In this document: piece by piece, positions 22,531 through 54,590 of the stretch
Layout: the number at the start of each line of letters is the position of its first letter
How positions within the stretch are numbered: position 1 is the first letter of the stretch
From: Paramecium tetraurelia
Taxonomy: Eukaryota > Ciliophora > Oligohymenophorea > Peniculida > Parameciidae
Assembly: GCF_000165425.1 (NCBI RefSeq)
Contig: NW_001799011.1
Location: 187,933-251,932 of the forward strand
DNA length: 64,000 nt
Reading direction: 5' to 3'
Translations under genes and position numbers: made by a program
The notes under the pieces: model-generated
The model's input: the letters and a program-made list of their open reading frames with translations, nothing else
What the model was told of the DNA's origin: nothing
Databases searched by the model: none

Positions 22531-23944
22531 TCAATTATCTGAATCATTAGGAGGAGTAGCACGATTAGATTTTTTAGAACCTTCTAATTATCTTTTAGAT
22601 TTAGTTTTCTATTATATTTCAATTATATTTATTTCTACAGTTGGCTGAGCCTACTAATTTATTTAATCTTGGTATTCTTAATGCAATAATCTCTTCTACA
22701 ATTTTTCATTGATCTAAATATATGAATTTATTTACTTAATCAATAACAACTAAACTTTCTTACAGATATTTTGGTGGAATAAGATTAGGAATTGACATTT
22801 CGATTCTCTTTTAATATCTTCTATTTGTAAATTTTTATTGTCTTCTAAATGTTATCTTTGCCTTCATTTTATTTTAAACTATCTCATATCTATTCATAAT
22901 TTCTGTTTTAAAATCAGCCAAATTAGAAATAGACCCTTCCATCCATGGATGCTTTTTAATTTATTCTAATGAAATTCTCTTCTAAGGATTTTCTTCCAAT
23001 ATTTTTTCAATAAGATCTTTGAATTGATTGGATATGTTATCGTTTAATTCTTAGAACACTTGCCAAAACTTTTATTTATCTTATTTTAAAAGAGAATAAT
23101 ATGGATCAGTATTTTTAGAAGTTTTAAATGGAGCAGACCTCATTGCCATACTAAAAAGGATGACTCCGGATGCAAATATATCAGCTGATTCAGGTATATA
23201 ATATTTTTATTTACCAACTTAAGGTTATAAATATACTCTTACTTGCATTTGATAGTTCAGGTGGATTATATTCTGGAGATCCTAAATATTATTGCACTTC
23301 AAATTAGACTTTGGCTCCAGTTTCATCCACAGATTTGGCACTAAATCCAAAATCTGCTAGCTTCAAGATTCCATTGCTAAACAAGATGTTTTCAGATTTT
23401 ATATCTCTATGAACTATTCCTTTTTCATGTAAATATTGAATGCCTATACTAAGTTTTGTTGAATAAACTACCCTTAATCAATTAAGAAAATATTCTCCTT
23501 AGGAACTTTTCAGAGAATTAATGAGTTTATTCAAGCAATTCAAATAATTCGCCTTAATCTGCCAATTCCATCACAAAATAAGATACTTAGCATAATCTAC
23601 CATCCACTTTCCTGTATTTCCCATTGATATTGCACTATTTATTGAGATCTCAAAATACTTGAATAATCTTAATTATATTATTATGTTCAAACTCCGCTTA
23701 CTTGAGTTACCTCATTTATAAATTGTTATAGTTTATTCTGATTTGTAGTTGGATCAATCTTCATTATTTTTATTGCATACTTTTACTTATCTTGTACATC
23801 GATAGCTAACTTCACTCTAAAATAATCAGAATAGTAGAATTACTTTGCATATCTGCCCACACCAATTGTATCAATAATATAGTACTTATCGTCTAGAACT
23901 GAAGCATAATCAAAATAATCACTTTAAATATCTAAAGACATCAT
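22531..23944 (-). CDS. serine/threonine protein kinase, CaMK-like
   Basis: A kinase of about 427 residues. The N-lobe has [15 protein letters not shown], with KYAIKIMKI as the ATP-binding lysine region. The catalytic loop is [14 protein letters not shown], the magnesium loop LADFGFSAK (DFG), the activation segment ends [13 protein letters not shown], and HPWMEGSI closes the C-lobe. The tail is short, basic and Q-rich. Introns of 24, 28, 25, 22 and 30 nt are inferred; the 28-nt one (GTAGTT...GTATAG) restores [13 protein letters not shown]. Near 23,690, before the HNNIIKI segment, one extra base breaks the frame and no short intron repairs it without losing helix C. Otherwise the kinase looks catalytically complete. 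Confidence 0.8.
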
Positions 23945-24094
23945 TTTTTATAATGAAATATTTTTTTATTCTGATAATTTAAATGGTTATTATTTAAATT
24001 TCCCATCATCGTAACTAAGAATAGAATCCAATAAGAATTCATTGTTGAATAATATTTTAAATGGAAACTACTATTTAAATATTGATTAATAACT

Positions 24095-24496
24095 TCATTA
24101 AACCTTGCTTTTTATATTCTGGATGTTATTTTTAGATGAACAAAAATATAATTATTAAATAATTTAGGTATTTGATTAAAACATCTTTATTATCATTCCT
24201 TCATTCATTTCCTATTGGTTTAGCTCTTTTAATTACTTTTATTATATAGTTTAATAATTTTTCTATATAAATTTTCATTCTATCATTTCTACTTATTTTT
24301 GAAAAATTGATAAATGTTCTTTTATAATGTATTTCTAAAGGGTTTAATTTATAGATTAATTTTCTCTCTTTTTTATTTTCAAAAAAAGTTGTTTTCTATC
24401 ATTTTTCTATGTACTAAATTAAGCATTGTTGATTATTTATGGCTAGATTTTTATGCACTTAAATTTTAGCTTATTCAATTTCAAATTTGATGACAT
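24095..24496 (-). CDS. small Q/N/K-rich protein or 3' exon of next gene
   Basis: A 123-residue frame starting MSSNLKLNKLKFKCIKIQPQ and ending NNIQNIKSKVQ, with one 30-nt intron (GTAGAA...TATAG) removing an in-frame TGA. It lies in exactly the same frame as the adjacent upstream reading frame (24,497-25,375), from which it is separated only by a TGA. It may therefore be the 3' part of that gene. I recognise no domain. Confidence 0.4.
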
Positions 24497-27021: not shown

Positions 27022-28490
27022 ATTTTGTTTACTTTAAGGTTTATCCAGTTTATTAAGGTTATTTTTATAATAATGGTGACTATTGAGGGGGTTTCTTCTA
27101 TGTTTATGTTAATTGTCTAGTAGATTGAGGATGCTACTTAGCGAATTGCTATTTGGAAAGTTGGACACTCTATTTTTTATTGGTTGCTGATTATGATTAT
27201 TATTACACAACTTAATGGTCAACTTCATCAATCTGTTACAGTTATGTTTAGATTTTAGGTCTAATTAAAGTATAAAATTACTTATTAGTAGCAGTGCTTA
27301 AGGTATTTTCATTAGTAACAAAAGGATGGTTTAAGAGTTCTATTGAAGTGATTCTTTTCTTTGGTTCTGGTTCCAAGGCACGATACAAACAATCCAGACA
27401 ATTTTGAGAGAGCTTGTTATTGAATTCATGAGGAATGTTGACTCTCCCCTCTGAAATTTAAGCAATAATCTCTTTATTGGTGTTACCGGTAAATGGTAAT
27501 GTGCCAAATAGCATACCATATAATATGATACCCATTGACCATACATCCACTAGAGGGGAGACTGCCTTGTCCATTCCTAATAAGATATTTTTGGAATGAA
27601 AATACCTTTGAGCAATTCAGGAGCCATATATCGAAGACTGCCTGCATCTGCATTTTCTGGATTGTCATTAGATGCAAAGCCGGAGATGCCAAAGTCAATA
27701 CATTTGATGATGCCAGAATCTTTGCTGGTCAACAATAGGTTTTCTAATTTTAAATCTCTATGAATTATCTTCTTCTGATGACAATATGATATTGCACTGA
27801 CCAACTATTTAAAATAATGTCTAGCCTCATTCTCCTCGAATCTCCCTTTGGTTTACAAATATTAAAGCAATTCACCGCCCTCCAAATATTCCATAATATA
27901 AACAGTTTATAAATTCTGTAAAAAGAAGGCATTATAAATTTTGACTATGTTATCGTGTTTTAGAGACTTGAGTGCTCTTGCTTCTCTGAAGATCATATCC
28001 ACATCCTCATTATGATAAATGTTTACTTAGGCATTTGTCATCATTTACTTAACCATGTTTGATAGCTACCTTCTCGCCTGTTTGCTTGTGTCTTCCCAGT
28101 ACGACCTTTCCAAAGCCTCCTTCTCCGATATCTTACAATTGTTCATACTCTGCCAATTAAAAGCTTTCGTCGAATTCTTCACCTTTAAATAACTTACACA
28201 TGGACTCTTACCTTTGGATGCAAATAACACAGTTCCATTTTTTATATAATCCAAATCGTCCTCAGTTATTTCTACGCCCTCCTAATTGAAGAGTCTCAAG
28301 CGATTAAACTGAGTGTCCCATTTTTATTGCAAAGATTTACGTATTTCACTAAATTTAGTATTATCTCTGATTGTTAAGGTGCAACATAAATTGGAATTGC
28401 CATTACGATATATTTTGATCTAGTTTTAATATTGCATTCTACATCTTTGTTGTTTGTTGTTGGTTAATAATCATCATAAAATTGATCCAT
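27008..28490 (-). CDS. doublecortin-like protein kinase
   Basis: A 457-residue protein. Residues about 18-90 fit a doublecortin-like (DCX) domain: IKIYRNGNSN ... LQQKWDTQFNRLRLF, then NQEGVEITEDDL and YIKNGTVLFASKGEEF. The kinase domain follows: IGEGGFGKVVLGRHKQTGEK, VAIKHVNIYHNE, YLEGGELLQYL, IIHRDLKLENLLL, CIDFGISGF, GSLRYMAPELL and VWSMGIILYGMLFGTLPF. All catalytic motifs are present. The Q-rich tail (residues 360-457) looks disordered. Introns are 23, 29, 28 and 29 nt, two ending in AAG; the 28-nt one restores VAIK. DCX-kinases bind microtubules and occur in ciliary or cortical structures. Confidence 0.85.
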
Positions 28491-28651
28491 ATTTATAATT
28501 AGATTTTAATAGCATATATATTGAATTAAATTTCATATTTTGCCACTGCTTCCTCTCACTTCAAATTTGAATCTCACCACCACTCTCTCCTCATTATTTT
28601 TAATATATTATTCTATGATATATTTACTAAATATTTTATTAAATCATTAAA

Positions 28652-29315
28652 ATGAAAGTGGATTTTTTAACGCGTTTTAAAGGAAGGACTTCTACAATGA
28701 ACAAGCGTGAAGGAGTCATTGGCATCATTAAATCAAATGGAACTCCCATTGAGAAAATGCCTGCCTCCTACACCTTTAGTTCATACATCTCCAATTAGAA
28801 TGCCTATAACTATTCAGATATTGAAAAGCACTCACAACCCTCCAACGACGTGACTCCAACAAGCAAAGACCCAGTAGGTCATTACCAACATTAAAACATT
28901 CAACAAAAGTAGAAAATTATCACATGCCTCTCCATTGAAACCTGGAACCAATATGTCCAGACCATGTATAGATCACAATTTGTCCCCGATAAAGAAATGT
29001 ATTAATTCCCACTCTCGAAAACTGGGTCGGTCAATTTAAACGATTATGAATTGATTGCAATACCTAAAAGTGTGTTGTGTATATAACTATTTAAAATTAT
29101 TAGAATATGGTATTAGAGTAGAACATCCAGATGGTGACCAACCAAAATCAACTGTCTTGCCAAATATCTCAAGACAATACTACTCTAAGTCCCAATCCCT
29201 TGATTTACAATAAGATAGACCAATGGTCAAATCAGAAATATTAAACTAAGGTTCCTATGCAAAACAAAAAGAAAAAAGAAGTCTTCTCATAGCCGGAATG
29301 AATTCAATTAAATGA
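28652..29315 (+). CDS. hypothetical protein
   Basis: A 212-residue protein starting MKVDFLTRFKGRTSTMNKRE. It is basic, with many S, T, Q and P, and one 25-nt intron (GTATAT...TTTAG) near 29,079. Segments with better-than-random composition include CLSIETWNQYVQTMYRSQFV and YGIRVEHPDGDQPKSTVLPN. A 36-nt GTA...AAG stretch near 28,880 could be an intron but is in frame and readable. No domain, signal peptide or membrane helix is visible, and I recognise no family. Confidence 0.55.
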
Positions 29316-29433
29316 TTGCCTTTTTTTCTGATATCGGAGGAGTAAAAATCTTTGATGTTTGAAAATTATTAATAAAATTATACTCACACTAAATTATTCA
29401 AAGCTATACGAATCATATGAGAGTACAAATCCA

Positions 29434-30422
29434 ATGAAATCTAATAATAAAGAAAATATATTTGAAAGTTCGCCCTCTATCAAACTAGATTAAATGAGAA
29501 ACTCTTATTGTGATTCGTGAATAGAGAAAGAGACAAACAATTATATTAGAAATAGTAGAAGATCACATATAGAGTTGTTAGGAAAAATACATGCTCTTAA
29601 AGCATGTAGAGATATTTATCTATCAGATGTAAAGAACAATATAAGTTCATTTTCCAGCAGTTTGAATATATATTAACTTAACTGGATTTAAAGATACTTG
29701 ATAATTTGCTGAATTTAAAAACAAACCTTATATCAGTTTCTTAAAATTCAGTTGAGAGTATCTACACTTAAAGAGTAAATATTAATTATCAGAACAGAAA
29801 GAACTAGGATTAAAAAATAATATTTGTACTTAGATTTCTTAATATTCTTAGCTCTAGTAAATTTAAAGAAATTTTTATAAAGCTTATATCATTAAAAGTA
29901 AACTGCACATATGTTAATAAACAGATTTGATAAAAATAAGATGAGAGTTTAAGGATAAAAAACTTAAAATCTAAAGTTGTATGAATCATTAGATTCATTC
30001 TGAACATTTATGCTTAATTGTTAGATGCATAAATTTATACAAATAGATTAAGGATGATATTTCAAAGAATTAAACTAATTATGATTATTACTAATATTAT
30101 TTTCGTTTATTTTTACTTTCTTTGTCTACAGAAGGGTAATGAACTTGATGTATGAAGAATTTAACAGTCTTTTTCAAGTGATTTACTCTGAGACAACTTA
30201 AAATCAATTTTAAAGAAATTAAGTAAGCAACCTTTAATGAATGAAAGGGAGAAATTCTAAGTAAATAAAATGCTAACGTATAACGATATAACTAATCAAA
30301 AATCAAAAATATAGAGAAAATCACATTCACTCCCTACTTTATAATATCTTATCTAATAAGTGTTTTTTTATTAATTTTCTATTTTCCTTAGATAAATATA
30401 AATATTATCATTTCTAACCTGA
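29434..30422 (+). CDS. unresolved multi-exon gene
   Basis: A region with clear coding character in successive frames but no single proven splice pattern. Readable pieces include MKSNNKENIFESSPSIKLDQ, QYKFIFQQFEYILTQLDLKI, then LKTNLISVSQNSVESIYTQR and FLNILSSSKFKEIFIKLIS, and downstream DDISKNQTNYDYYQ and KQPLMNEREKFQVNKMLTYN. A 29-nt GTT...AAG and a 22-nt GTA...AAG intron join some of them. Lone TGAs remain near 29,518 and 30,193. Family unknown; the boundaries are estimates. Confidence 0.3.
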
Positions 30423-42322: not shown

Positions 42323-42997
42323 TCAGAATCTCAATTTTGAGAACAGGAATCTTGATTGAGCTTTCTTATCAGCCAAACTTCCTGCTGGCAATGTTCTATA
42401 TTTTTCAGCTAAATATTTTCTCAAATTCTTTCTCAAGTCCTTTCTTTTTTCAACATTCTTCAATTCAGCCTCTTTTACTCTTTCAATTCTATCTCTGACT
42501 TCCTTTAAGGTTGACTCTTCTAATCTGTATCTAGAAACAATCAATATTTTTAATACCTTGTTGGCATAATGTGATTAAGATTTAATTATTTAATGAAGAC
42601 TTTCAATGTTGTTCGCTTTCTGATTTACTTTTATCCCATTCTCTTGGTAACTTTTCTTGGATATCTTTAAATACCAACAACTAAACCATTTGGGAATTTT
42701 GCATCCTAAAAAAATCAAAATTTTGATTTACTTTAGTTGATTCTTCATTTGCTTTAATCANNNNNNNNNNNNNNNNNNNNNNNNNNNNNNNNNNNNNNNN
42801 NNNNNNNNNNNNNNNNNNNNNNNNNNNNNNNNNNNNNNNNNNNNNNNNNNNNNNNNNNNNNNNNNNNNNNNNNNNNNNNNNNNNNNNNNNNNNNNNNNNN
42901 NNNNNNNNNNTGGTTCCTGCTTATCTGCCAGCAAGCAAAACTACTAGACGACCTGGTTTCAAGCTAGCTATATTACTATTGCTTACAATTTTCCCAT
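42323..42997 (-). CDS. eL27: 60S ribosomal protein eL27
   Basis: Ribosomal protein of the large subunit. The N-terminus (SLKPGRLVVLLAGRQAGT) precedes a 150-base run of N. After the gap and an intron (GTAAAT...TTTTAG) the frame resumes DAKFPNGLVVGIQRYPRKVT, then KRMGQKQIRKRTTLKVFIKQ, LNHIMPTRYRL and the C-terminal helices. A 26-nt intron lies inside MPTRY. The start at 42,997 gives MGKIVSNSNIASLKPG, slightly longer than usual; part of it could be another intron. The residues lost in the gap would bridge AGRQAGT to the DAKFPN block. Confidence 0.92.
42761..42910. other. assembly gap (150 N)
   Basis: A run of 150 unknown bases inside the eL27 gene, almost certainly a scaffold gap rather than sequence. 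Confidence 0.98.
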
Positions 42998-43311
42998 TTA
43001 AAAATACTAAATAAATCTTTTAATAATTTATTCCAAATTTTTTGTTACTAATAATCTAACTCATTGATTGAGTACACATAGAACTTATCAGAATCCAAGT
43101 GACAAAAAAACAAAATCATTAATGAACAAATTGATAAGGTTTATTCAATTATAATGATTAAATCCAATTCTATCTTATAAAATGTATTAGATGGAATAAC
43201 CACATGATTAAACCTCATTTAAAATTTTATAGTCTTTTTTTACAAAAGAATGAAAAATAAAGTTTATTTGATTTATAATATTTTATATTGTACGATAATA
43301 TCTTGGAATAA

Positions 43312-43928
43312 TCAAAAGACTAGGTCGTGTGGTCTAGTTGTTTTGCCAATGCTGAAACGTGCACCAAGATATTGTTTCAAGAGTGGTGTTTTCTTAACAG
43401 CTGCAATCAATGCATCATCAATTGATTTTTAAGTCTTTCTTTTACCTTCCAATCTTGTTTTTTCTGCTGTTTATTATTCAGCTGTGAGCTAAGCATAAAA
43501 TAGTCACTTTACTTCTCCTCTCTTGGCCCAGAATCCTTATTCATTTTTACGTCTCTAAGCTTATGTTCTCTTGAAATATAAGTCATCGACTTAGCCAGCA
43601 TTCACTCCATTGACATCTACTTTAGTGGATGTTGGAATAACATATGCTGAGTTGACTCTCTTAAGTGGGACACCATTAATTTTGAATGGACCTGTTACAA
43701 GCAACAATCCTGATTTAAGCTGCTTTAAGAATACTACTCTCTTTCCTTAGAATCTTCCAGCCAACAAGATCAATACTTGTCCTGGTATCAATCTTTCTTA
43801 ACTTAGCTGGTTTTGGTGCCTTTTTTGATTTTATTTCAAAATACTTTTCTCTTTCTAATGAAATGGACATTTTCATCATCACTCTTGTACCAATTACCAA
43901 TTCTCACAGTTCTCTTTTTAGCAGGCAT
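43312..43928 (-). CDS. eL6: 60S ribosomal protein eL6
   Basis: Large-subunit ribosomal protein. Segments: [84 protein letters not shown], and the end TRPHDLVF, which matches the conserved PHKLVF terminus. Introns are 25 nt (GTATTT...AAAAAG) and 24 nt (GTAAAG...GCTTAG). Between AKLRK and LIPGQ the frame slips by one base in the AGAAAG motif near 43,787. Removing one A gives KLRRLIPGQ. Because the rest is intact this is probably a sequence error or a recent hit to a duplicate copy. Confidence 0.9.
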
Positions 43929-44429
43929 TGATTATATTTTAATTAATTTTAAATCTAATTTTAAAATTTAATTATCCTTAATCACTCATCTCTTATACTT
44001 ATTTATAATACATCAAATATACGAATCCCGTGAGAAGGTAATGATAGCAATAATAGAGTTCAATTCTTAATTTATATAAAGACTTTAAATATAAAAATAT
44101 TTTGAACATGCTATTTTTTAATACTAAATTCCATTTAATAAATCAAAAACAATGATTGAGCAATGAAGGGAATTTTAATTTCAAATAAAATACAACTTAA
44201 ATTGTTGCAGATAAAATAATTGCAATAATTTTTATTAATAATAGTGAATTTGCTCGAGTCTAATTCTATTAATATGGTTAAACTTAAAATAATATTCCAG
44301 CATTTAATATCTATTTTTTTTTATTTAATGGATAAGGAGGAGGTATTCAGACTATCCTAAGAATTCTATTATATCTATATGTGTGCTTATGTTGCATTTT
44401 AATTGAAAATGTATTAATTAAATAAAATA
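43929..44429. other. AT-rich region before the left inverted repeat
   Basis: About 500 bases with no supported gene, between the eL6 start and the outer end of the left inverted-repeat arm. Confidence 0.5.
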
Positions 44430-45765
44430 AATGAAAGGATGGTAGAATTAGTATGATATCGCATAAAGAGTGAATAGAGAGGACGATTATTATGATAGAA
44501 TAAATGCACTTTGAAAAAAAATGATTATTAAACAACATACTTAGTCTAAAGATCTTCTTGAATATAAATTTCCTTAATCTGAATGTTTTAGCTTAGGGTA
44601 ATTAATTGAGTCATTGGTAAATTGAATGTATTATTTAGAATTACAATTTCATCAAGATCTATAAAGGTTAGGTTTTAATTATTATATTGGAAATCTTAAA
44701 ACATCTTTAATAATTACATTAATGTAAAATATCACATGGATAATTAATACCTTAAAACATTGTTATTAAATTAAAAAATGATAAAAATAATAAATTAACC
44801 ATCATATAAACTAAATTTACAATACAATAAGTATATTTTATTAATTATAGACTTATTGATGATTGTGAATATTAAATAAATTACTAACAAGATGTTCAAT
44901 AAATAATTGAATGTTTAATTTAAATAATTTAAGTATATTAAGATTAAAAGTGTTAATTATTAATCTTAATTTATAATCTATTGAATGAATATAAAAATAA
45001 TGAAAAAGAAGATGATTTAAAAAAAATGATAGAATTTTTTAATCAATTAATAAATGAGTATTTAATAATTTTATTTTAGTTTTGTTGATTAAAAATAGCA
45101 AAAACTAAAAAAAGGATCAACTAATTTATCAATCAACTAAAACGATTTAAACACTTAACTTGTTAAATATTAAGAAGGAGATGAATATGGTATGTTGACC
45201 AAAAGATGGCGAACGTAAACTGTATTCGAAAACTTTTTAGAAAATTTAAATTCGCAGAGCATTACTTGTAAATTATAATACACAAAGCATTATTCTGTTT
45301 CAGATACTGAGCAATTTTTAGATATTTCTGCATTAACTTAAGATGAATTATAGATATACAATGTTGTTGAATAAATTATAAAGTAATAAATGATCAAAAT
45401 AATTTGGAATCAGCTCGGAGCCTTCTTTGAATCTTGGGATGAAGAACTAGATTCTAAATTTAACGCAATCCTTAAGGATATTAATAATACGAATAAATTA
45501 ATTTTGAAAAATCAATTAAGTCTTCTTTTGGAAGAATATAAAAATATTAATTAAATAAACACTCAGATTTAAGTAAATATTGAAACAAATTATAAATTTG
45601 ATATTTAATATGAAGAATAGAAGGCGCAACATATATTCCTTTAAGAATTGAAGGTCTAGGTATCAAATTACTCATTCAATGATTTTCAAACCTTTGTTAA
45701 TACAATCAAATCTAATGTGAAAGTAAGAATTAACAAATTATTACAATCAAATTGTAATGTTAGAG
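44430..45765 (+). repeat. left arm of a 1.34-kb inverted repeat
   Basis: This segment is repeated in reverse complement at 51,778-53,119. Matching begins at AATGAAAGGATGGTAGAATT on the outer side and ends near ATTACAATCAAATTGTAATG on the inner side, with long exact blocks and scattered substitutions and small indels. By eye identity is about 90-95%. The outer flanks (44,340-44,430 against 53,120-53,160) and the inner flanks do not match. It contains the coding region 44,521-45,785. Confidence 0.95.
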
Positions 45766-45785
45766 ATTTTAAAATTAATAGTTGA
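44521..45785 (+). CDS. kinase-like/coiled protein, left copy
   Basis: Coding blocks read MIIKQHTQSKDLLEYKFPQS, then, after a 22-nt intron, NYNFIKIYKGQVLIIILEIL, KHLQQLHQCKISHGQLIPQN and IVIK. This has the spacing of a kinase helix E and a degenerate catalytic loop (HGQLIPQN for HRDxxxxN). Further blocks (QDVQQIIECLIQIIQVYQDQ; DDLKKMIEFFNQLINEYL) fit a C-lobe. The last 190 codons, from about 45,190 to TGA 45,783, are helical (IIWNQLGAFFESWDEELDSK; KLILKNQLSLLLEEYKNINQ). Splicing near 45,070-45,200 is unsettled and at least one join is unexplained. It is probably a pseudokinase related to the gene at 53,180. Confidence 0.5.
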
Positions 45786-45831
45786 TTTAATTTGATATTT
45801 CAAACTAAATAAATATGAATATGTAATATTT

Positions 45832-47807
45832 TCATTATGGAGTCTGTAATACATCGCCTTTAACTGATAACTTTTAATCGCTTTTAACATCTTGTAAATT
45901 TGCAGATTCTCCATGTGACCCAATATCTAGTTCTTAATGTTCTTTCTTCTCATGATGCTTTTTTGCACCATGATGATGACCCTTATTAAAGGAATGTTTT
46001 AATATTATTAAATCTAATATTATAGTAACTGAAAAGATGACTAAATTTGCCAGGTTGTAAGACCAGGCAAAATTAGTTAGATCACTTTCTAGGTTTGTAA
46101 AGAAGTAATCGCTAACAGGATCTGAAACACAGTTATTTTCATTGATATCTTTAATTACTAGTCTTTTTCCATCTATAATAGAGAATGAAACACAAATAAC
46201 AATAATTTCAGCTATTTATAATGCTATCTTAAAGGCAATTTCAATTATAAATATATAATTATACTAAGAATCCGGATGAGCTAAATAATAACAGATTATT
46301 GTTACTTGTCATACAAGACCAAGCAAAATTGCAGGCAGTCATAGTTCCTACAATATTGAATATAAGACCAATAACAATAAAATATGTTATTGTGACTGCC
46401 AATTAAACTCTTAATGATACATAAACAAAAAATAATGTACTTCCCTCATGAATCACATCATCAAATAATTCTCCTCTACAATTTGGAGCCCAAGGAATAT
46501 AAGTCTTAGAATGAATGGTCCAATTATATTTTGTATCTATGTTGAAATAAGGCAACTTTTCTTTTAAATAAACGACATTATTGGACAAATAAAATTATTC
46601 TTCATCTATAGAATGGATTAATTTGAATAAGGGATCAGTATTTTCACATTATTTTCTTCTATCTATCATGAGAGGATAGTCGATTCTATTAGGAGAGATA
46701 TTTTAATTTAAATTCCTCCTACAAACTTTATCACTTTCAGTAGCTCTAAACTCAATAACTGGTAGATTTGAAGTATTTTTTAAATAATAAAAATAAAACC
46801 CTTTTCCTAGATCATAGATATTTCCTTTATTAGTATCATTTAATTTTTGCAAGTTTTTGAAAGTAGAATTTGTAGTAAATCCAATTTCTGAAATAGGACA
46901 ACTCATATCAGGTGGAACACAAAATATATTATCTCCTGTTCCGCATACTGTTTTGTTTTCTGATTCACAATAACTCTAATTTGTTTGTAAACTTATCCCA
47001 GTCTTTCTTCTTGCACATAAAACAAAGGCTAAAATCTCTAGTTATATAACTTACGTCTTCCATAGGAACCATCATTCCAAGAATTAAAAACTTTTGGTTA
47101 TTATTCATTCACATTATGACATCCTTTTGCCAACATTTCCTAACTGCAAACTCTTCCAAGCATAAACGATTGTTTAAAAAACTCCTCTATATTTACAAAA
47201 TTTTAATCTTATAATAATGAGAAGTTAAATCCTTAGCTACAATCACATCCAATCATTGTTCCTGACCAGTAATATTCATATAAAGAAGAATACTATATTT
47301 TGAAATTATTATTACTTCACTTCCAAATTAACTCTTACAATTTTTATTTGTATAAGTAAATTGAATATCATCTATTACATATGAACCCATATTATCCAAA
47401 AATTATTTATAATCTCCTTCATACACTGTTTGATCTCTGTAAGATAAAATGCTTAAAGTCAATACAGCTACGCTAACTATGAAAAAATATGCTTAATATG
47501 CCAATCTCACCTTATCAACAGGTTTTTTACGCAACAATCTCTTTAGCCTTCTTGCTGAAATTAATCGTTCTTTTTTTGCTTATTACTTTCTCTTTTTCAC
47601 TAAATCCCTTTTCATCAACTTAGGATCTTCATCATGATAAACTTGATTTAACACACTACTCATTGGATTAGTTTCACAGTATTTTTAATTTTGCTATTGC
47701 CCATCTTGATCAAATATTTGATCATTCACTTTTTCTGGATTTAATTGATATTGTTCTTAATCTGGCAGATATTTCTGATTCTCTGTATTCATTTCTTGGG
47801 CAGCCAT
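45832..47807 (-). CDS. multipass membrane protein with Cys-rich ectodomain
   Basis: A 629-residue protein. The first 130 residues are cytosolic and charged (MAAQEMNTENQKYLPDQ; KKRKQQAKKERLISARRLKR). TM1 is QAYFFIVSVAVLTLSILSY. A Cys-rich extracellular region follows with GTMIGCDCSQGFNFS, KGCHNVNEQQP, CARRKTGISLQTNQSYCESE and DNIFCVPPDMSCPISEIGF. Three more helices close the protein (VQLAVTITYFIVIGLIFNIV; ALQIAEIIVICVSFSIID; NLVIFSVTIILDLIIL), then a His-rich tail (HHHGAKKHHEKKEHQ). Introns are 23, 26 and 37 nt; the last is longer than usual. It resembles ciliate-specific transmembrane proteins, function unknown. Confidence 0.7.
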
Positions 47808-47833
47808 TTAATAAATTAAATAATATCATAAAA

Positions 47834-48241
47834 ATGAAAGCAAAGATAAGTATTGGTAAAACTGCTACTGAATTCTTAATTTAACTTCCATTTTACTTAT
47901 AGCTAATAAATGTTATTTATAAAGAAGTAAAAGAAGATTATCATTAAAACAAATATTATAAAAGTAAAGACATCCAAGTACAAAACTATTTCATGAATTA
48001 TAATGGAAATAAAATATATTCAAAAAATTTAATTTTCCTTTTTAACATCAACATAATAAAATATATATATTTAGTTAATTTTCCTCTAAAATTTATTATT
48101 GATCGCAGTCTTTAAGTTAATTCAACTGATGAGCTTGGGCCTATGATTGTTCCTTAAACTATATTAAAATTTCATCATTAGATCATTTTTTATTATTAAG
48201 TTTTTAAAATACAATAAGTTTTTAAAATACAATAATAATGA
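47834..48241 (+). CDS. possible hypothetical protein, 135 residues
   Basis: An intronless plus-strand frame starting MKAKISIGKTATEFLIQLPF and ending within a short tandem repeat (VFKIQQVFKIQQQ). The middle has YKEVKEDYHQNKYYKSKDIQ and a hydrophobic stretch. It lies divergent from the membrane-protein gene. Its composition is only modestly better than random, so it may be noncoding. Confidence 0.3.
48198..48235 (+). repeat. short direct tandem repeat
   Basis: Two adjacent copies of an 18-19-nt unit (TAAGTTTTTAAAATACAA). Probably replication slippage in AT-rich DNA. Confidence 0.8.
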
Positions 48242-48503
48242 TTATAATAATTTTGAATTCAATAAAACTGAAAATAAATTAATTGTATATATTAGAAGCA
48301 AAATTCTATTAATATAAATTTTAAATAAATTATTCTCTATAAATGTGTCTTTTTTTATTATTGTTGTGTTTGGAATGGCATTTTGATTTTGAAGAATTCT
48401 AGCTTTAAAACAGTGTTTCATCTATATTAAGATTTGCAGCATTTAAATGAATCATTATGCACTAAGCTTTAATAATCAAATAATTAGTATTAATAGTTAC
48501 AAA

Positions 48504-49594
48504 TCACTTTTATCCCTGCATCCATGATGGCATCAAATTTTTTAATGGTTATCTTCCAAAGATATTCTCTTCTTCTGGTGTAAACTACCACAGTAGATTT
48601 GGCACTTCCTCATTTTTTATTTCCCTCAAATCATTAAAAAATGGATGCATTAAAGCCATAAATGGTTTAATTCTTTACTACGGTTAATATCTATTGTAAT
48701 AAAATTGCATCATTACGTAATCATCTTTTTAATCAAATCAACAAATTATGGGTCCGGCTTATATTTAAGAAAAACTTTTGACCACGGATGTCCTTTAACT
48801 TAAGGGAATTTAAAATCTGTATTAGAGACATTGAATTCAGCAATATCAGCTGCTGTAGGTGTCCCCAAAACCTTCATTATCTCAACTAATTGATCTACTG
48901 AACTTTCTCCTGGAAACAGTGGCTCCAGGAGAATAAGCTCAGCGAAAACACAACCCAAAGACCATATATCAATGTTTGTTGAATAATCAGTGGCTCCAAA
49001 TATGAGTTCAGGAGCGCGATAATTTCTGGAACATAAATAAGAAGTGTTAATTTATCCTCCTGAAATGATCTTGGATGAACCGAAATCGCAATATTTAACT
49101 GTCATTCTATCTATGAGAATATTCTATGGTTTAATATCCCGATGAGCCATTCCTTTTCCATGAATAAATGCTAATCCTCGAAGTAACTAATAAGTTATGC
49201 ATTATAATTCAATTTATGCTAATTGTTTCTTTTGTTTCTTCAAATTCTTGATATAATCTGATAAATTCTCAGGAATGAACTCCATAACGAAATTTATAAA
49301 AACTTCCTCACTTAATTCATATTTAAAATACGTTATACTTTTAACCAACTACATAAAAGGCGTCTTTGAGAGGTATAATATTTGGGTGATCTCCAAGCAA
49401 CTTCAAGTTTGCAAGTTCTCTATTTTTATATTTCTTGTCAAGGGGTGCCTTTTTAATTGCAACTCTTTCACCAGACTCCTAAACCGTTGCTACAAAACTA
49501 ATATTAATATTAAGATTTTATACACTACAGCAAAGGCTCCTTCTCCAATCCTTTTTTCTACAGCATAGCTTGAAAGACTCTCGTTATTTTTCAT
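48504..49594 (-). CDS. GSK3/shaggy-type protein kinase
   Basis: A 336-residue CMGC kinase, intact after three introns (26 nt GTA...TAG, 28 nt GTA...AAG, 26 nt GTA...TAG). Motifs in order: [40 protein letters not shown] (catalytic Lys), [96 protein letters not shown] and the C-terminal HPFFNDLRE. The [12 protein letters not shown] and [15 protein letters not shown] blocks are diagnostic of GSK3; the regulatory tyrosine is kept as RNY-R. It lies wholly between the inverted-repeat arms. Confidence 0.92.
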
Positions 49595-50867
49595 ATAATT
49601 TATATTAAAGGAAAAAGAGAATTTAATAAATATAAATCGCTATTATTATACTATGCTATTATTGTTGAACATTATAAATACTTCTTTTTGGATGAAACCA
49701 CAACTAAAGAAACAGATCAATAAAATATTTGAAATTGAAGGGATATTTACTTGAATGAATGGAAGAAGAAAAATTATAATTGAATTATAGGGTTGTTTTA
49801 TATTTAATTACGGTCAATAAATGAAAAAATCAAGGTTTTAGACTTAATAATTAAATAATATGTAAGCTAGATTAGTAATTAATATTATATCCAGCATATA
49901 TAATTCACTTTCGATCCGAAATATTTTACACATTATATTAATTTTTATTATGAGATATTATTAAGAATTAATAAAAGAACAATTTCTCCTTCTTAATTAA
50001 TTTAGTATTATTAATGCGCTGCTGCTAAAGGCTTAAGAAAAGAACCCGGTTTTACTCAATAAAACCATAAATTAATTATTATAGTCTAATTCAAAACTTT
50101 ATGGTATTGAAGTAAGACCGTTGTAATTTATTACAGAGAAAGTTGAAAAATAGTTACGAAGGGTTTCAAGATAGTTGAATTTAACTTAATGGAAGTATTA
50201 TAGTTACTAAAGAAGCAAATGAAACTCAGGAAATCTTATAATTTGAGAAAAATTTCATGATATCATAAGTAAAAATAGGAAAAGTCTAATACGCTAAGAA
50301 TATAGAGCTATTCTCTAAACTTATTAAATGACACAGAAAAATTTTAGATGTACTTGGCCGTAATTAGAATTTTAAATAATAATATTTTATTTAGTCGATT
50401 TCTTTCAGCGTTCTTTTCATATATTGTTATATAATCAAAATAAACAATATTTATTTTTCTTTTCATATGATTTCATTAAAATGGTTAGAAATAATGAAAA
50501 AAACCAACTAAGAATAAAAATAATTATCAATAATGTAATATAAAAATGTTAAAAGAATCTTTTGGATTATAGAATGAATTTTTTATAAACAAGAAGTATA
50601 AAAGAACAATGAAAATTAAATATTAGTATATTTTAAAAATAGAATAATTTTAATCAGATGTATTAAGACTATCTGGAATGATATAATTTTTTTTCAAAAC
50701 ATCAAATAATAAATAATTAAATGATCTTTATTGAATAAGAAATATTTAGGAATTGCTAAAAAATGTTCTAGATATCTTTTCCATAAGAATTAATGTGATG
50801 AGAAATATGTAATAATTACAATTAATTTTCATATTCAATAATTAAACGCTTTAAATAACTAAATTAA
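49595..50867. other. gene-poor region between the repeat arms
   Basis: About 1.27 kb with no gene I can support, unusually long for this window. Weak open stretches at about 50,010-50,340 (MVLKQDRCNLLQRKLKN) are interrupted by TGA in all frames. It may hold decayed coding sequence. Confidence 0.5.
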
Positions 50868-51650
50868 AATATGAGTTAAGGATCATAAAAGTAAAGAACT
50901 TCATCTCCTTAATTTGGAGTAAAAGTTACATAAAGGGAAAGCAGCGTAACCAATGAAAAGACGAAACCAAATACAAAGCTTTTTTGAAAAATATTCATAC
51001 CTTTTAGGTAATTGGTGAATTAGGATTTATGTATGTTTATACTCATTTTCTATATTTCACCATCAAATAAAAAACTTAGTACTGTTCATTAAACGATCAA
51101 GAAGATATTGCAAGTCATAATTCTTTAGGATCATATTTACATGAATTTAATGATGTCTTTAAAGGTTGGGGTATTATAAATGCTAAATTAATCTTTAACA
51201 TTCAAGGAAGAATTCCATAATGTCCAGAAAACTATAATTATTTTTTTAGTGAATTTTAAACTGAAATGTGTTTAACCAATATACAATCAAGGTAATATAT
51301 TGGCTAATCTATAGGATGTTACTGTTGTTTCGGCTACAATTGATAGATTATGTAAAGAAAGAAATGGGAAATTTTAAGTTTATATATCACCATAATCACA
51401 ATCTCATTTGATAAATTGAATTTTAGATGAGAAGAAGGAAGCGTCAAATGGGTATTAGAAGTTGGTAAAAAGTAAGGATTTTTTACAAACGCTTGTTACC
51501 ATACAGAGGAATTGAAAATACAAAAGATAATTAGGATACTCTCTTTACTAATTGTGAAAATATAAAATATAAGATCATCGCGTAGTTTCAAGCGAGGAAA
51601 ACAACAAAAGAGAAATCTTAAATAATTGACCTCTTTTGTAGCAGTTACTC
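50868..51650 (+). pseudogene. worn or unresolved membrane-protein gene
   Basis: The region starts MSQGSQKQRTSSPQFGVKVT. A hydrophobic helix follows (GELGFMYVYTHFLYFTI), then an ectodomain-like part (DIASHNSLGSYLHEF; LIFNIQGRIPQCPENYNYFF; GQSIGCYCCFGYN). After a TGA the same frame continues with a second helix (WEILSLYITIITISF), and a basic tail in another frame (MRRRKRQMGIRSWQKVRIF). The N-terminal part joins the rest only through a non-standard splice or a T-run shift near 50,984. GCYCCFGYN is reminiscent of GCDCSQGFN in the gene at 45,832, so it may be a decayed relative. Confidence 0.35.
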
Positions 51651-51777
51651 ATATATTTAAAGACTTTCATATATATAAGGGGGGAATTTATCCCTTAATT
51701 AAATATTAATAATAATTATTTTTTTCAAATTATTTTTTAATTTATATCAAACAAAATCAAATTAGAGTTTAATGATT

Positions 51778-53029
51778 TCTTACATTACAATTTGATTGTA
51801 ATAATTTTTTAATTCTTATTTCACATTAGATTTGATTGTATTAATAAAGGTTTGAAAATTATTGAATGAGTAATTTGATGCCTAGATCTTCAATTCTTAA
51901 ATGAATATATGTTGCGCCTTCTATTCTTCATATTAAATATCAAATTTATAATTTGTTTCAATATTTGTTTTAATCTGAGTGTTTATTTAATTAATATTTT
52001 TATATTCTTCCAAAAGAAGACTTAATTGATTTTTCAAAATTAATTTATTCGTATTATTAATATCCTTAAGGATTGCGTTAAATTTAGAATCGAATTCATT
52101 ATCCCAAGATTCAAAAAAGGCTCTGAGCTGATTCCAAATTATTTTGATCATTTATTACTTTATAATTTATTCAACAACATTGTATATCTATAATTCATCT
52201 TAAGTTAATGTAGAAATGTCTAAAAATTGCTCAGTATCTGAAACAGTGTCATCCATAATGCATGTAATGTATTTTAATTTACAAGTAATGCTCTGCGAAT
52301 TTTAAATTTTCTAAAAAGTTTTCGATTAGAAATTACATTCGATATCTTTTAGATAACATACCATATTCTTCTCCTTCTTAATATTTAACAAGTTAAGTGT
52401 TTAAATCGTTTGAGTTGATTGATAAATTAATTGATCCTTTTTTTAGTTTCTGCTATTTTTAATCAACACAACTAAAATAAAATTATTAAATACCCATTAA
52501 TTAATTGATTAAAAAATTCTATTATTTTTATTAAATCATCTTCTTTTTCATTATTTTTATATTCATTCAATAGATTATAAATTAAGATTAATAATTAACA
52601 CTTTTAATCTTAATATGCTTAAATAATTTAAATTAAACATTCAATTATCTATTGAACATCTTGTTAGTAATTTATTTAATATTCACAATCATCAATAAGT
52701 CTATAATTAATAAAATATACTTATTGTATTGTAAATTTAGTTTATATGATGGTTAATTTATTATTTTTATCATTTTTTAATTTAATAACAATGTTTTAAG
52801 GTATTAATTATCCATGTGATATTTTACATTAATGTAATTATTAAAGTTGTTTTAAGATTTCCAATATAATAATTAAAAGCTAACCTTTATAGATCTTGAT
52901 GAAATTGTAATTCTAAATAATACATTCAATTTACCAATGACTCAATTAATTACCCTAAGCTAAAACATTCAGACTAATAAAATTTATATTCAAGAAGATC
53001 TTTAGACTAAGTAGTTGTTTAATAATCAT
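51778..53029 (-). pseudogene. kinase-like/coiled protein, right copy (degraded)
   Basis: This is the second copy of the coding region in the left arm. The ATG at 53,029 is kept but a base is missing a few codons later (KQL for KQH), so the frame shifts. Long parts of the downstream frame remain readable (EEYKNINQINTQIKTNIETN), with other small indels, for example near 52,250-52,290. It is more damaged than the left copy and is probably a decaying duplicate. Confidence 0.6.
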
Positions 53030-53119
53030 TTTTTTCAAACTGCATTATTCTTTCATAATAATCATCCTCTCTATTCACTTTTTATGCAATTTCATACTAA
53101 TTCTACCATCCTTTCATTT
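51778..53119 (-). repeat. right arm of the 1.34-kb inverted repeat
   Basis: This is the reverse-complement partner of 44,430-45,765. Long identical blocks include the 'AGTCTTCTTTTGGAAGAATA' region and the 'TCAAGATCTATAAAGGTTAG' region, separated by scattered differences. About 6.0 kb lies between the two inner ends. Confidence 0.95.
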
Positions 53120-53179: not shown

Positions 53180-54590
53180 ATGCAAGGCTTATAGACCATC
53201 TACAAGTTTACTTATCCAAAGAAATAACCTCTCCCGGAAGTACACTTTATTTGTAAAAGAGAAGATGAAAATTGTTTTTTTTATCAACTTGAAGCATCAA
53301 ACTATATTTCCCTTGATGTACTCCTAAAAGCTTATGTAAAAATTTTATTTAACATAGTTAACTCAAATTATACGATTGAGTATTGGCTAATGTTTAATAT
53401 TGATAAAATTAATTTATGAAAAGGTTATTGAAGTTTATAGAAAGGAAGGAAAAACATTACCTAAAATAACATTGGAAAACATATGGATTTATACTGATAA
53501 TGGATTTAGTGGAGAAATTAGACCATAAAAATCAATGAAGATTATATTTTTGAATTATTAAGATGAAAATGTAAGTATAGAAGAAAATTTGAATCAACTT
53601 TAATTTATCAATCGTAAAATAAAAACAATTTGTGCTAAGACTGAATTTAAAATAAGGGCGATTGATGGTAAAAATAGCCATCTAATATAATAAATAACTA
53701 ATGTTATTGATGATATGTTTTATGACATAGAAATGTGTTTGTACTAAAGTCCAAAAGAAATTAAAGATAGAATCAAAAAATACGTAAATGAAGACACTTA
53801 GGAAACTGATTATGAATATTTGCAAGTTGATGAAGTTTCATATATTCAAAAGAATTTTGAGAATGTAATTAAAAAATTAAATGAAATATTCAAAGTGGAT
53901 TGCTAAAATGAATTGCAATTACATAGAAAATTGTTAACTTGGTAATAAACATTATTTGATGAATTTATTGAAACAACTTGGGATAGATAAGGTTATGAAA
54001 TAATAATGAGGATTTTAGATAATTTTGAAGATAAGATTAAAAATGACGAAAATATGACAACTGAAATTTTTCATAAATTCTTTAGAAAGTTAGAAGAATA
54101 AGGATTTTTGAATTTTAATTCAAAAAAATTACTTACATCCTCAGAAATAAAATTTAATCGTGAATTAACTTTATCATTGCAAAACGAAAAGAGTAATCGG
54201 GAGAAATAAGAAAAGGATAAGGATGTTTTAGTAGGGGGTATTGAATAGATGTTTGCAGAACGAGTGTTGGAGGAGAAAGAAGACGCTAATGATTTTGCAC
54301 AGTTTAAATTAAAAAAACCCATAAGGGATAAAAATTTAATAATATTGAAAGATTTTTATAAATAAAATGCTCAAAATAGATATAAGTTGTTTGATAGGTT
54401 TTATTACACTATTAATTTTGAAGAAAAATGGACAAATTATATAAAAGTTGAAGTTTTACCAAGAGAAAAAAAAACAATTCAAGTCGATGACGAATAGTTA
54501 GATAAAACCTTAACTCCCTTATTTGAGAAACTATTAAGAGAGAATAAAATTGGCAGAAATAACCAAGAAGAAAAACCGAAGTATATTTGA
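53180..54590 (+). CDS. divergent kinase-like protein
   Basis: A 462-residue protein with one 22-nt intron. Residues 1-60 (MQGLQTIYKFTYPKKQPLPE; FFYQLEASNYISLDVLLKAY) and 60-140 (LTQIIRLSIGQCLILIKLIY; LPKITLENIWIYTDNG; MKIIFLNYQ) follow the order of a kinase hinge, helix E, catalytic loop and beta strands. The loop reads LPKITLENI instead of HRDLxxxNI and there is no DFG, so activity is unlikely. The rest is helical and charged (FENVIKKLNEIFKVDCQNEL; EIIMRILDNFEDKIKNDENM). It lies 60 bp outside the right repeat arm and appears related to the arm-encoded protein. Confidence 0.6.

Follow-up and report, generated by a model that had tools for sequence, protein, structure and literature searches.

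The window analysed here is a 64,000-nucleotide stretch of the Paramecium tetraurelia genome (assembly GCF_000165425.1, contig NW_001799011.1, positions 187,933 to 251,932 of the forward strand), and it carries two reverse-complement copies of one kinase-like gene, placed tail to tail on either side of a spacer of ∼5.9 kb that holds unrelated genes. The same inverted pair occurs at a duplicate of this locus on another scaffold. From comparison of these sequences we consider it highly probable that the pair predates the duplication of the locus and that its copies have since been homogenised within each locus by gene conversion, because the arms group by locus even though they share position and neighbours between loci. 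The scaffold of the window is called C58 below; C138, C63, C69, C157, C156 and C177 are other scaffolds of the same 69-Mb genome, the loci of which come in duplicated sets. The inverted tail-to-tail pair would have been present before the ancestral locus split into C58 and C138, after which the two copies at each locus would repeatedly have swapped sequence by ectopic, non-reciprocal gene conversion in the germline, resulting in ∼95% likeness within a locus against ∼70% between loci. The coding sequences would be alike enough to pair and the flanks would not, the latter, free of selection, having presumably diverged until they were unable to pair. We infer that conversion rather than another homogenising route was at work, that the micronucleus was its site and that this loss of pairing made it stop near the start codon.

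Aligned with blastn, the two arms are 93.8% identical over 1,413 columns, which bears out the 1.34-kb inverted repeat described in a first-pass annotation of this DNA, with arms slightly longer than first given (Table 1); a chance origin of the repeat is out of the question. The only other self-match in the window of at least 100 bases at E 1e-5 covers 119 bases at 73%, pairing 24,082-24,193 with 52,415-52,525 in the right arm, and may be A+T-rich low-complexity sequence. A search of the genome with the DNA of the left arm returned four places: the two arms on C58, and C138:217,506-218,838 (+) and C138:223,655-224,988 (-), which are 94.3% alike over 1,430 columns (blastn). C58 and C138 are collinear over the 17 kb compared around the C138 pair, with the left flank, left arm, membrane gene, protease, right arm, EF-hand gene and onward in the same order and orientation, and the two loci presumably derive from the last Paramecium whole-genome duplication. 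This shared structure bears on the suggestion that the repeat marks an assembly junction, in which case the right arm would be a misassembled or mis-joined copy of the left. The assembly has a run of N at 42,761-42,913 (X in the frames and a break between the C138 matches), near enough to the arms to speak for such an error, and the one-base insertions in the arm copies, which may themselves be errors, could be read in the same way; however, C138 bears the same inverted pair with its own sequence and its own differences, and there is a further pair on C63, so that misassembly is scarcely credible and the junction is not borne out.

Within each locus the copies are far more alike than between loci. 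The left and right copies are 94.8% identical on C58 (1,361 sites) and 95.1% identical on C138 (1,371 sites), against 68.1-70.4% for the four cross-locus pairs. Among 1,380 columns of the coding region, 894 are invariant, 337 group the copies by locus, three by position and none crosswise, with 124 showing other patterns and 22 gapped. The by-locus tree is ahead of the two alternatives by 762 log units, and both alternatives are rejected by the approximately unbiased test (p ≃ 4e-7). From the site patterns (337 against three) and this tree, the arms do seem to exchange sequence; the first-pass annotation had thought recombination between them possible. Synonymous distances are 0.079 and 0.081 within the pairs and 0.68-0.80 between loci; seven stretches outside the arms were compared in the same way, four of which gave C58-C138 distances of 0.76, 0.99, 0.99 and 1.14. 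The arms are thus about as old between loci as these four stretches, and within a locus look about tenfold younger. The small and similar distances within the pairs, including that on C63 (0.065), could also have arisen if each scaffold had acquired its own recent inverted duplication after the loci had separated, but both second copies would then have had to land beside the same two neighbours in the same orientation, and this origin seems improbable. The copies are identical over blocks of 197 and 178 columns, which exceed the lengths to be expected if differences were evenly spread (0 of 5,000 shuffles; P 0.0044), and such blocks beside more divergent stretches suit conversion better than a single copying event of even age. 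Long identical blocks are what conversion tracts would leave, although uneven constraint could also contribute.

The similarity between the arms ends near the ends of the coding sequence. Upstream of the ATG, blastn extends it by 15-16 bases on C58, 53 on C138 and 21 on C63, in A+T-rich sequence, and past the stop by 0-20 bases on C58 and C138. The 80-base flanks, upstream and downstream, give no clear match between the arms of one locus (z -0.1 to 2.1), whereas the 80 bases downstream of the left arm match between C58 and C138 (z 8.3). Homogenisation thus extends only a little past the coding sequence, as in the Amylase type discussed below. The right copy has gathered more derived changes than the left in both pairs (left to right, 17 to 29, P 0.10, and 13 to 27, P 0.04; pooled, 30 to 56, P 0.007), with counts of 15 to 24 and 12 to 21 when the last 90 columns are left out (P 0.20 and 0.16) and of 14 to 25 on C63, where the outgroup is rough (P 0.11); 25, 26 and 20 sites in the three pairs were unpolarised. 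Branch lengths in a tree of seven copies lean the same way (left 0.008-0.012, right 0.041-0.043). A master-and-slave relation between the arms is suggestive only.

Several observations weigh against an old pair kept alike by conversion. The 80 bases upstream say nothing either way (z 2.5 and 1.3 by position, 1.0 and 2.1 within a locus) and the 80 bases beyond the right-arm stops are unmatched between C58 and C138 (z -0.9), so that for the right arm orthology by position is supported by the protease, the EF-hand gene and the sequence after it. The remaining three of the seven neighbouring stretches, at 0.44 (40.8-41.0 kb) and at 0.20 and 0.08 (both 43.2-43.8 kb, that at 0.08 being read on the strand opposite to a ribosomal-protein-like gene), lie below the arms in synonymous distance between loci. 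The ratio of nonsynonymous to synonymous distance (dN/dS) between loci is 0.44-0.47 (bootstrap limits 0.33-0.63), which is high for a constrained gene, although it shows purifying selection in the long run, if weak; within the pairs it is 0.57-0.69, with upper limits of 0.98-1.27. Frame-breaking one-base insertions are present in three of the four copies at C58 and C138, and they would mean, if genuine, that the constraint which has kept the copies alignable is relaxing; all of the frame lesions are of this one kind and may be sequencing errors. Finally, conversion is read here indirectly, from sequence patterns in one genome.

If the arms do meet, crossing over between them might also invert the 5.9-kb interior, in the germline or the macronucleus, as a switch of use to the cell. 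Recombination between arms of 1.4 kb at 94% identity is possible in principle, and from their concerted pattern it seems that they do come together. The interior and flanks are nevertheless collinear between C58 and C138, with the interior in the same orientation at both, so that the two loci are not separated by any net fixed flip (flips in even number would leave no trace) and the flipping that had been envisaged for the interior is not borne out. Moreover, a flip between tail-to-tail genes would just swap their 3' parts and leave the promoters in place, and we regard such a switch as very unlikely.

Long frames in the window (G+C 22-33%) are open under ciliate code 6, in which TAA and TAG encode Gln and TGA is the sole stop. 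The code, the base composition, the short introns of the arm gene, the genome size and the duplicated sets of loci together suit a Paramecium of the aurelia type. Each C58 arm is one gene running from ATG (44,431; 53,117) to TGA, with two 22-base GTA..TAG introns, at 44,617-44,638 and 45,058-45,079 in the left copy and at ∼52,934-52,913 and ∼52,493-52,472 in the right; overall, introns of the arm gene are 22-23 bases long. A one-base insertion brings a TGA into the frame of the left copy at ∼44,512, and two more up to ∼44,537, within 36 bases, restore the frame; with another insertion near its end, this copy's own frame stops at 45,785, while the stop aligned with the other copies is at 45,795. 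The right copy, which ends at 51,747, is shifted by a one-base insertion near 52,300. On C138 the right copy has one one-base insertion and the left is open for 441 residues, although its 23-base first intron would oddly end in AAG rather than TAG. Both C63 copies are open, at 420 residues each, and a single intron suffices.

In its N-terminal half, the left copy on C138 is similar to protein kinases in the region of the catalytic loop, scoring 18.7 bits against Pfam Pkinase (PF00069), under the gathering cut-off of 31.7; neither the C58 right copy nor the C63 right copy gave a Pkinase match. Against kinases in the PDB, the best phmmer match of the arm gene has an E value of 0.0025. The aspartate of the HRD motif is the catalytic residue of protein kinases. 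In all seven copies read the motif is replaced by HGR, HGK, HGQ, HSQ or HGN and the aspartate is gone, and because of this the arm protein should be catalytically dead. Its C-terminal half has no Pfam match, and a predicted structure of the third exon of the left copy alone is of no use (predicted local distance difference test score, pLDDT, 34.8). The frames and the sub-threshold Pkinase similarity agree with the earlier description of the arms as coding and kinase-like, with no transposase. A transposable element with long inverted repeats was considered and rejected: the arms are a kinase-like gene, and the DNA search finds arm DNA at just two loci. Pfam searches of the interior pieces returned a kinase, the protease counterpart or nothing sound, and no transposase. 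Nor does the anatomy of the arms give support to a source of hairpin RNA, as both genes would give sense transcripts and the 5.9-kb spacer separates them.

Table 1. Positions in the window of the repeat arms, the genes that they carry and the genes between and beside them.
Feature	Start	End	Strand	Basis
Left arm of inverted repeat, as aligned	44415	45815	+	blastn
Left arm gene (A-L), pseudokinase-like N-terminal half, C-terminal half without known relatives	44431	45795	+	frames, alignment
Gene with several hydrophobic stretches, convergent with left arm gene; counterparts on C138, C157 and C156	45832	47807	-	
Presumed GSK3-type protein kinase (ends by reading of frames)	48504	49594	-	Pkinase E 7.7e-41 over 48,710-49,354
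Shortened papain-type cysteine protease; C138 counterpart longer	50868	51650	+	
Right arm of inverted repeat, as aligned	51731	53132	-	blastn
Right arm gene (A-R), same gene inverted	51747	53117	-	frames, alignment
Open reading frame, head to head with right arm gene	53265	54590	+	frames; no Pfam family above cut-off

The family was found at four loci, and at three of them it forms an inverted pair; those on C58 and C138 are tail to tail. The pair on C63 is head to head and lies at 22,841-24,164 (-) and 28,171-29,493 (+), with 95.3% identity over 1,326 columns, and C69 carries a single diverged copy. The remaining search matches, on C91 and elsewhere, are weak (E 0.0045 or higher) and have the appearance of ordinary kinases. 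In 162,002 bases chosen (not at random) around these loci, the three arm pairs are the only self-matches of at least 200 bases at E 1e-10. A gene beside the left C63 copy has relatives on C69 and C177 (70-71%), two scaffolds that share two long matches, at 87% and 80%; C177 yielded no arm gene, either in the 10 kb compared (best E 0.49) or in the genome searches. Beyond the arms, C63 and C58 share a weak tblastx run at 32-46% (C63 36.4-38.0 kb to window 33.1-36.6 kb), other matches being scattered.

More distant copies of the membrane gene bear on the age of the pair. Two of these are known, on C157 (77%) and C156 (68%). A 57-base segment of C157 matches 43,938-43,994 at 96.5%, which by our reading lies just upstream of the gene to the left of the arm; on C157 it starts 1,027 bases past the end of the match to the membrane gene, compared with 1,877 bases on C58. 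The C157 stretch between the two has no recognisable arm gene, and none was found in the 3.7 kb examined beside the C156 copy. The arm gene would therefore appear to have reached this place after the older duplication, or to have been lost there; its pairing would predate the parting of C58 and C138. It could further be supposed that the inverted arrangement is itself under selection, facing pairs of this fast-evolving family allowing conversion to mend one copy from the other. We hold this to be doubtful; if true, the pairs would be to a ciliate what palindromes are to sex chromosomes, would have persisted through a genome duplication and, given the two opposite orientations, would perhaps have been made twice.

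The interior had been described as holding a membrane protein and an intact GSK3 kinase. A protein kinase is indeed present and so is a gene with hydrophobic stretches; the product of the latter is a putative membrane protein from reading of its translation (Pfam gives no match on 46,241-46,906), and the name GSK3 is presumptive. The kinase has no match on C138 at E 1e-5; a stretch of 53 bases is 79% alike there (E 3.8e-4) and is perhaps a remnant of it. The gene has apparently been retained at C58 and lost at C138. We take the right interior gene to be a shortened cysteine protease because a 79-residue piece of its C138 counterpart matches Peptidase_C1 (E 3e-16). The left and right interior genes, earlier thought to be Cys-rich membrane-protein genes in mirror image and the trace of a larger original duplication, have no tblastx match to one another at E 1e-3, and each matches its own C138 counterpart. 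With blastn at E 0.01 a left and a right stretch share a lone 36-base match (E 0.007), which lies close to the outer limit of the stretches compared and not in those parts that have a match on C138. Neither the mirror image nor the larger duplication is therefore upheld.

The open frame at 53,265-54,590 (Table 1) has 441 residues; its one match in a genome search is itself, and there is no counterpart in the compared part of C138. It was rejected as a relative of the arm gene, as blastp and hhalign gave no convincing match, with E 1.4 for the arm gene of C138 and E 0.003, over 37 residues, for that of C63. Its similarity to a frame that lies next to the C63 pair, head to head with the right copy, is weak (E 0.009 in blastp; probability 0.9% in hhalign). 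To the left of the arms, the region 43,200-43,994, with the ribosomal-protein-like gene (so named from its translation), has an unusually low synonymous distance to C138, 0.08-0.20 over two stretches, for which codon bias, promoter constraint and conversion between loci are candidates.

In the Paramecium aurelia species, recent single-gene duplicates have been described as extremely rare, with a median of 28 per genome (PMC10195154). The C58 pair, at a synonymous distance of 0.08, could pass for one, yet the duplication of its locus (0.68-0.80 for the arms across loci) seems to be the younger event, and some of the recent duplicates that have been counted may for this reason be inverted pairs of long standing that conversion has kept young in appearance. 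Among Paramecium ohnologues, gene conversion following genome duplication is said to be common (PMC10195154); it runs between duplicated loci, whereas in the arms it appears to run within each locus and not between loci. Two duplicated loci within one genome provide an internal yardstick for conversion. In the partial literature covered, we came across no description of conversion acting on inverted gene pairs in Paramecium.

The C58 pair follows a pattern already known from inverted pairs of Drosophila and Caenorhabditis. The palindromic Amylase and Hsp70 pairs of Drosophila are likewise linked inverted paralogues, with copies within a species closer than orthologues, and in Amylase homogenisation is restricted to the coding sequence, the flanks evolving separately (PMC3924832). 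Those pairs were compared between species, whereas here the comparison is between two duplicated loci of one ciliate genome, with a 5.9-kb spacer of unrelated genes. The Caenorhabditis inverted-repeat pairs (Zhao et al., 2007; PMC1803023) are also pairs of paralogues whose inverted structure lasts longer than their sequence; they are both divergent and convergent, and gene conversion is the proposed mechanism. Their arms include intergenic sequence and two of their spacers are 126 and 414 bp (PMC1803023), whereas here the arms end near the coding ends and the spacer is measured in kilobases. The human Y and X palindromes are similar to the pair on C58 in that arm-to-arm conversion keeps the arms alike. 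Sex-chromosome palindrome arms include noncoding DNA. They are reported to be >99% identical, compared with 94-95% and one gene only in the arms described here.

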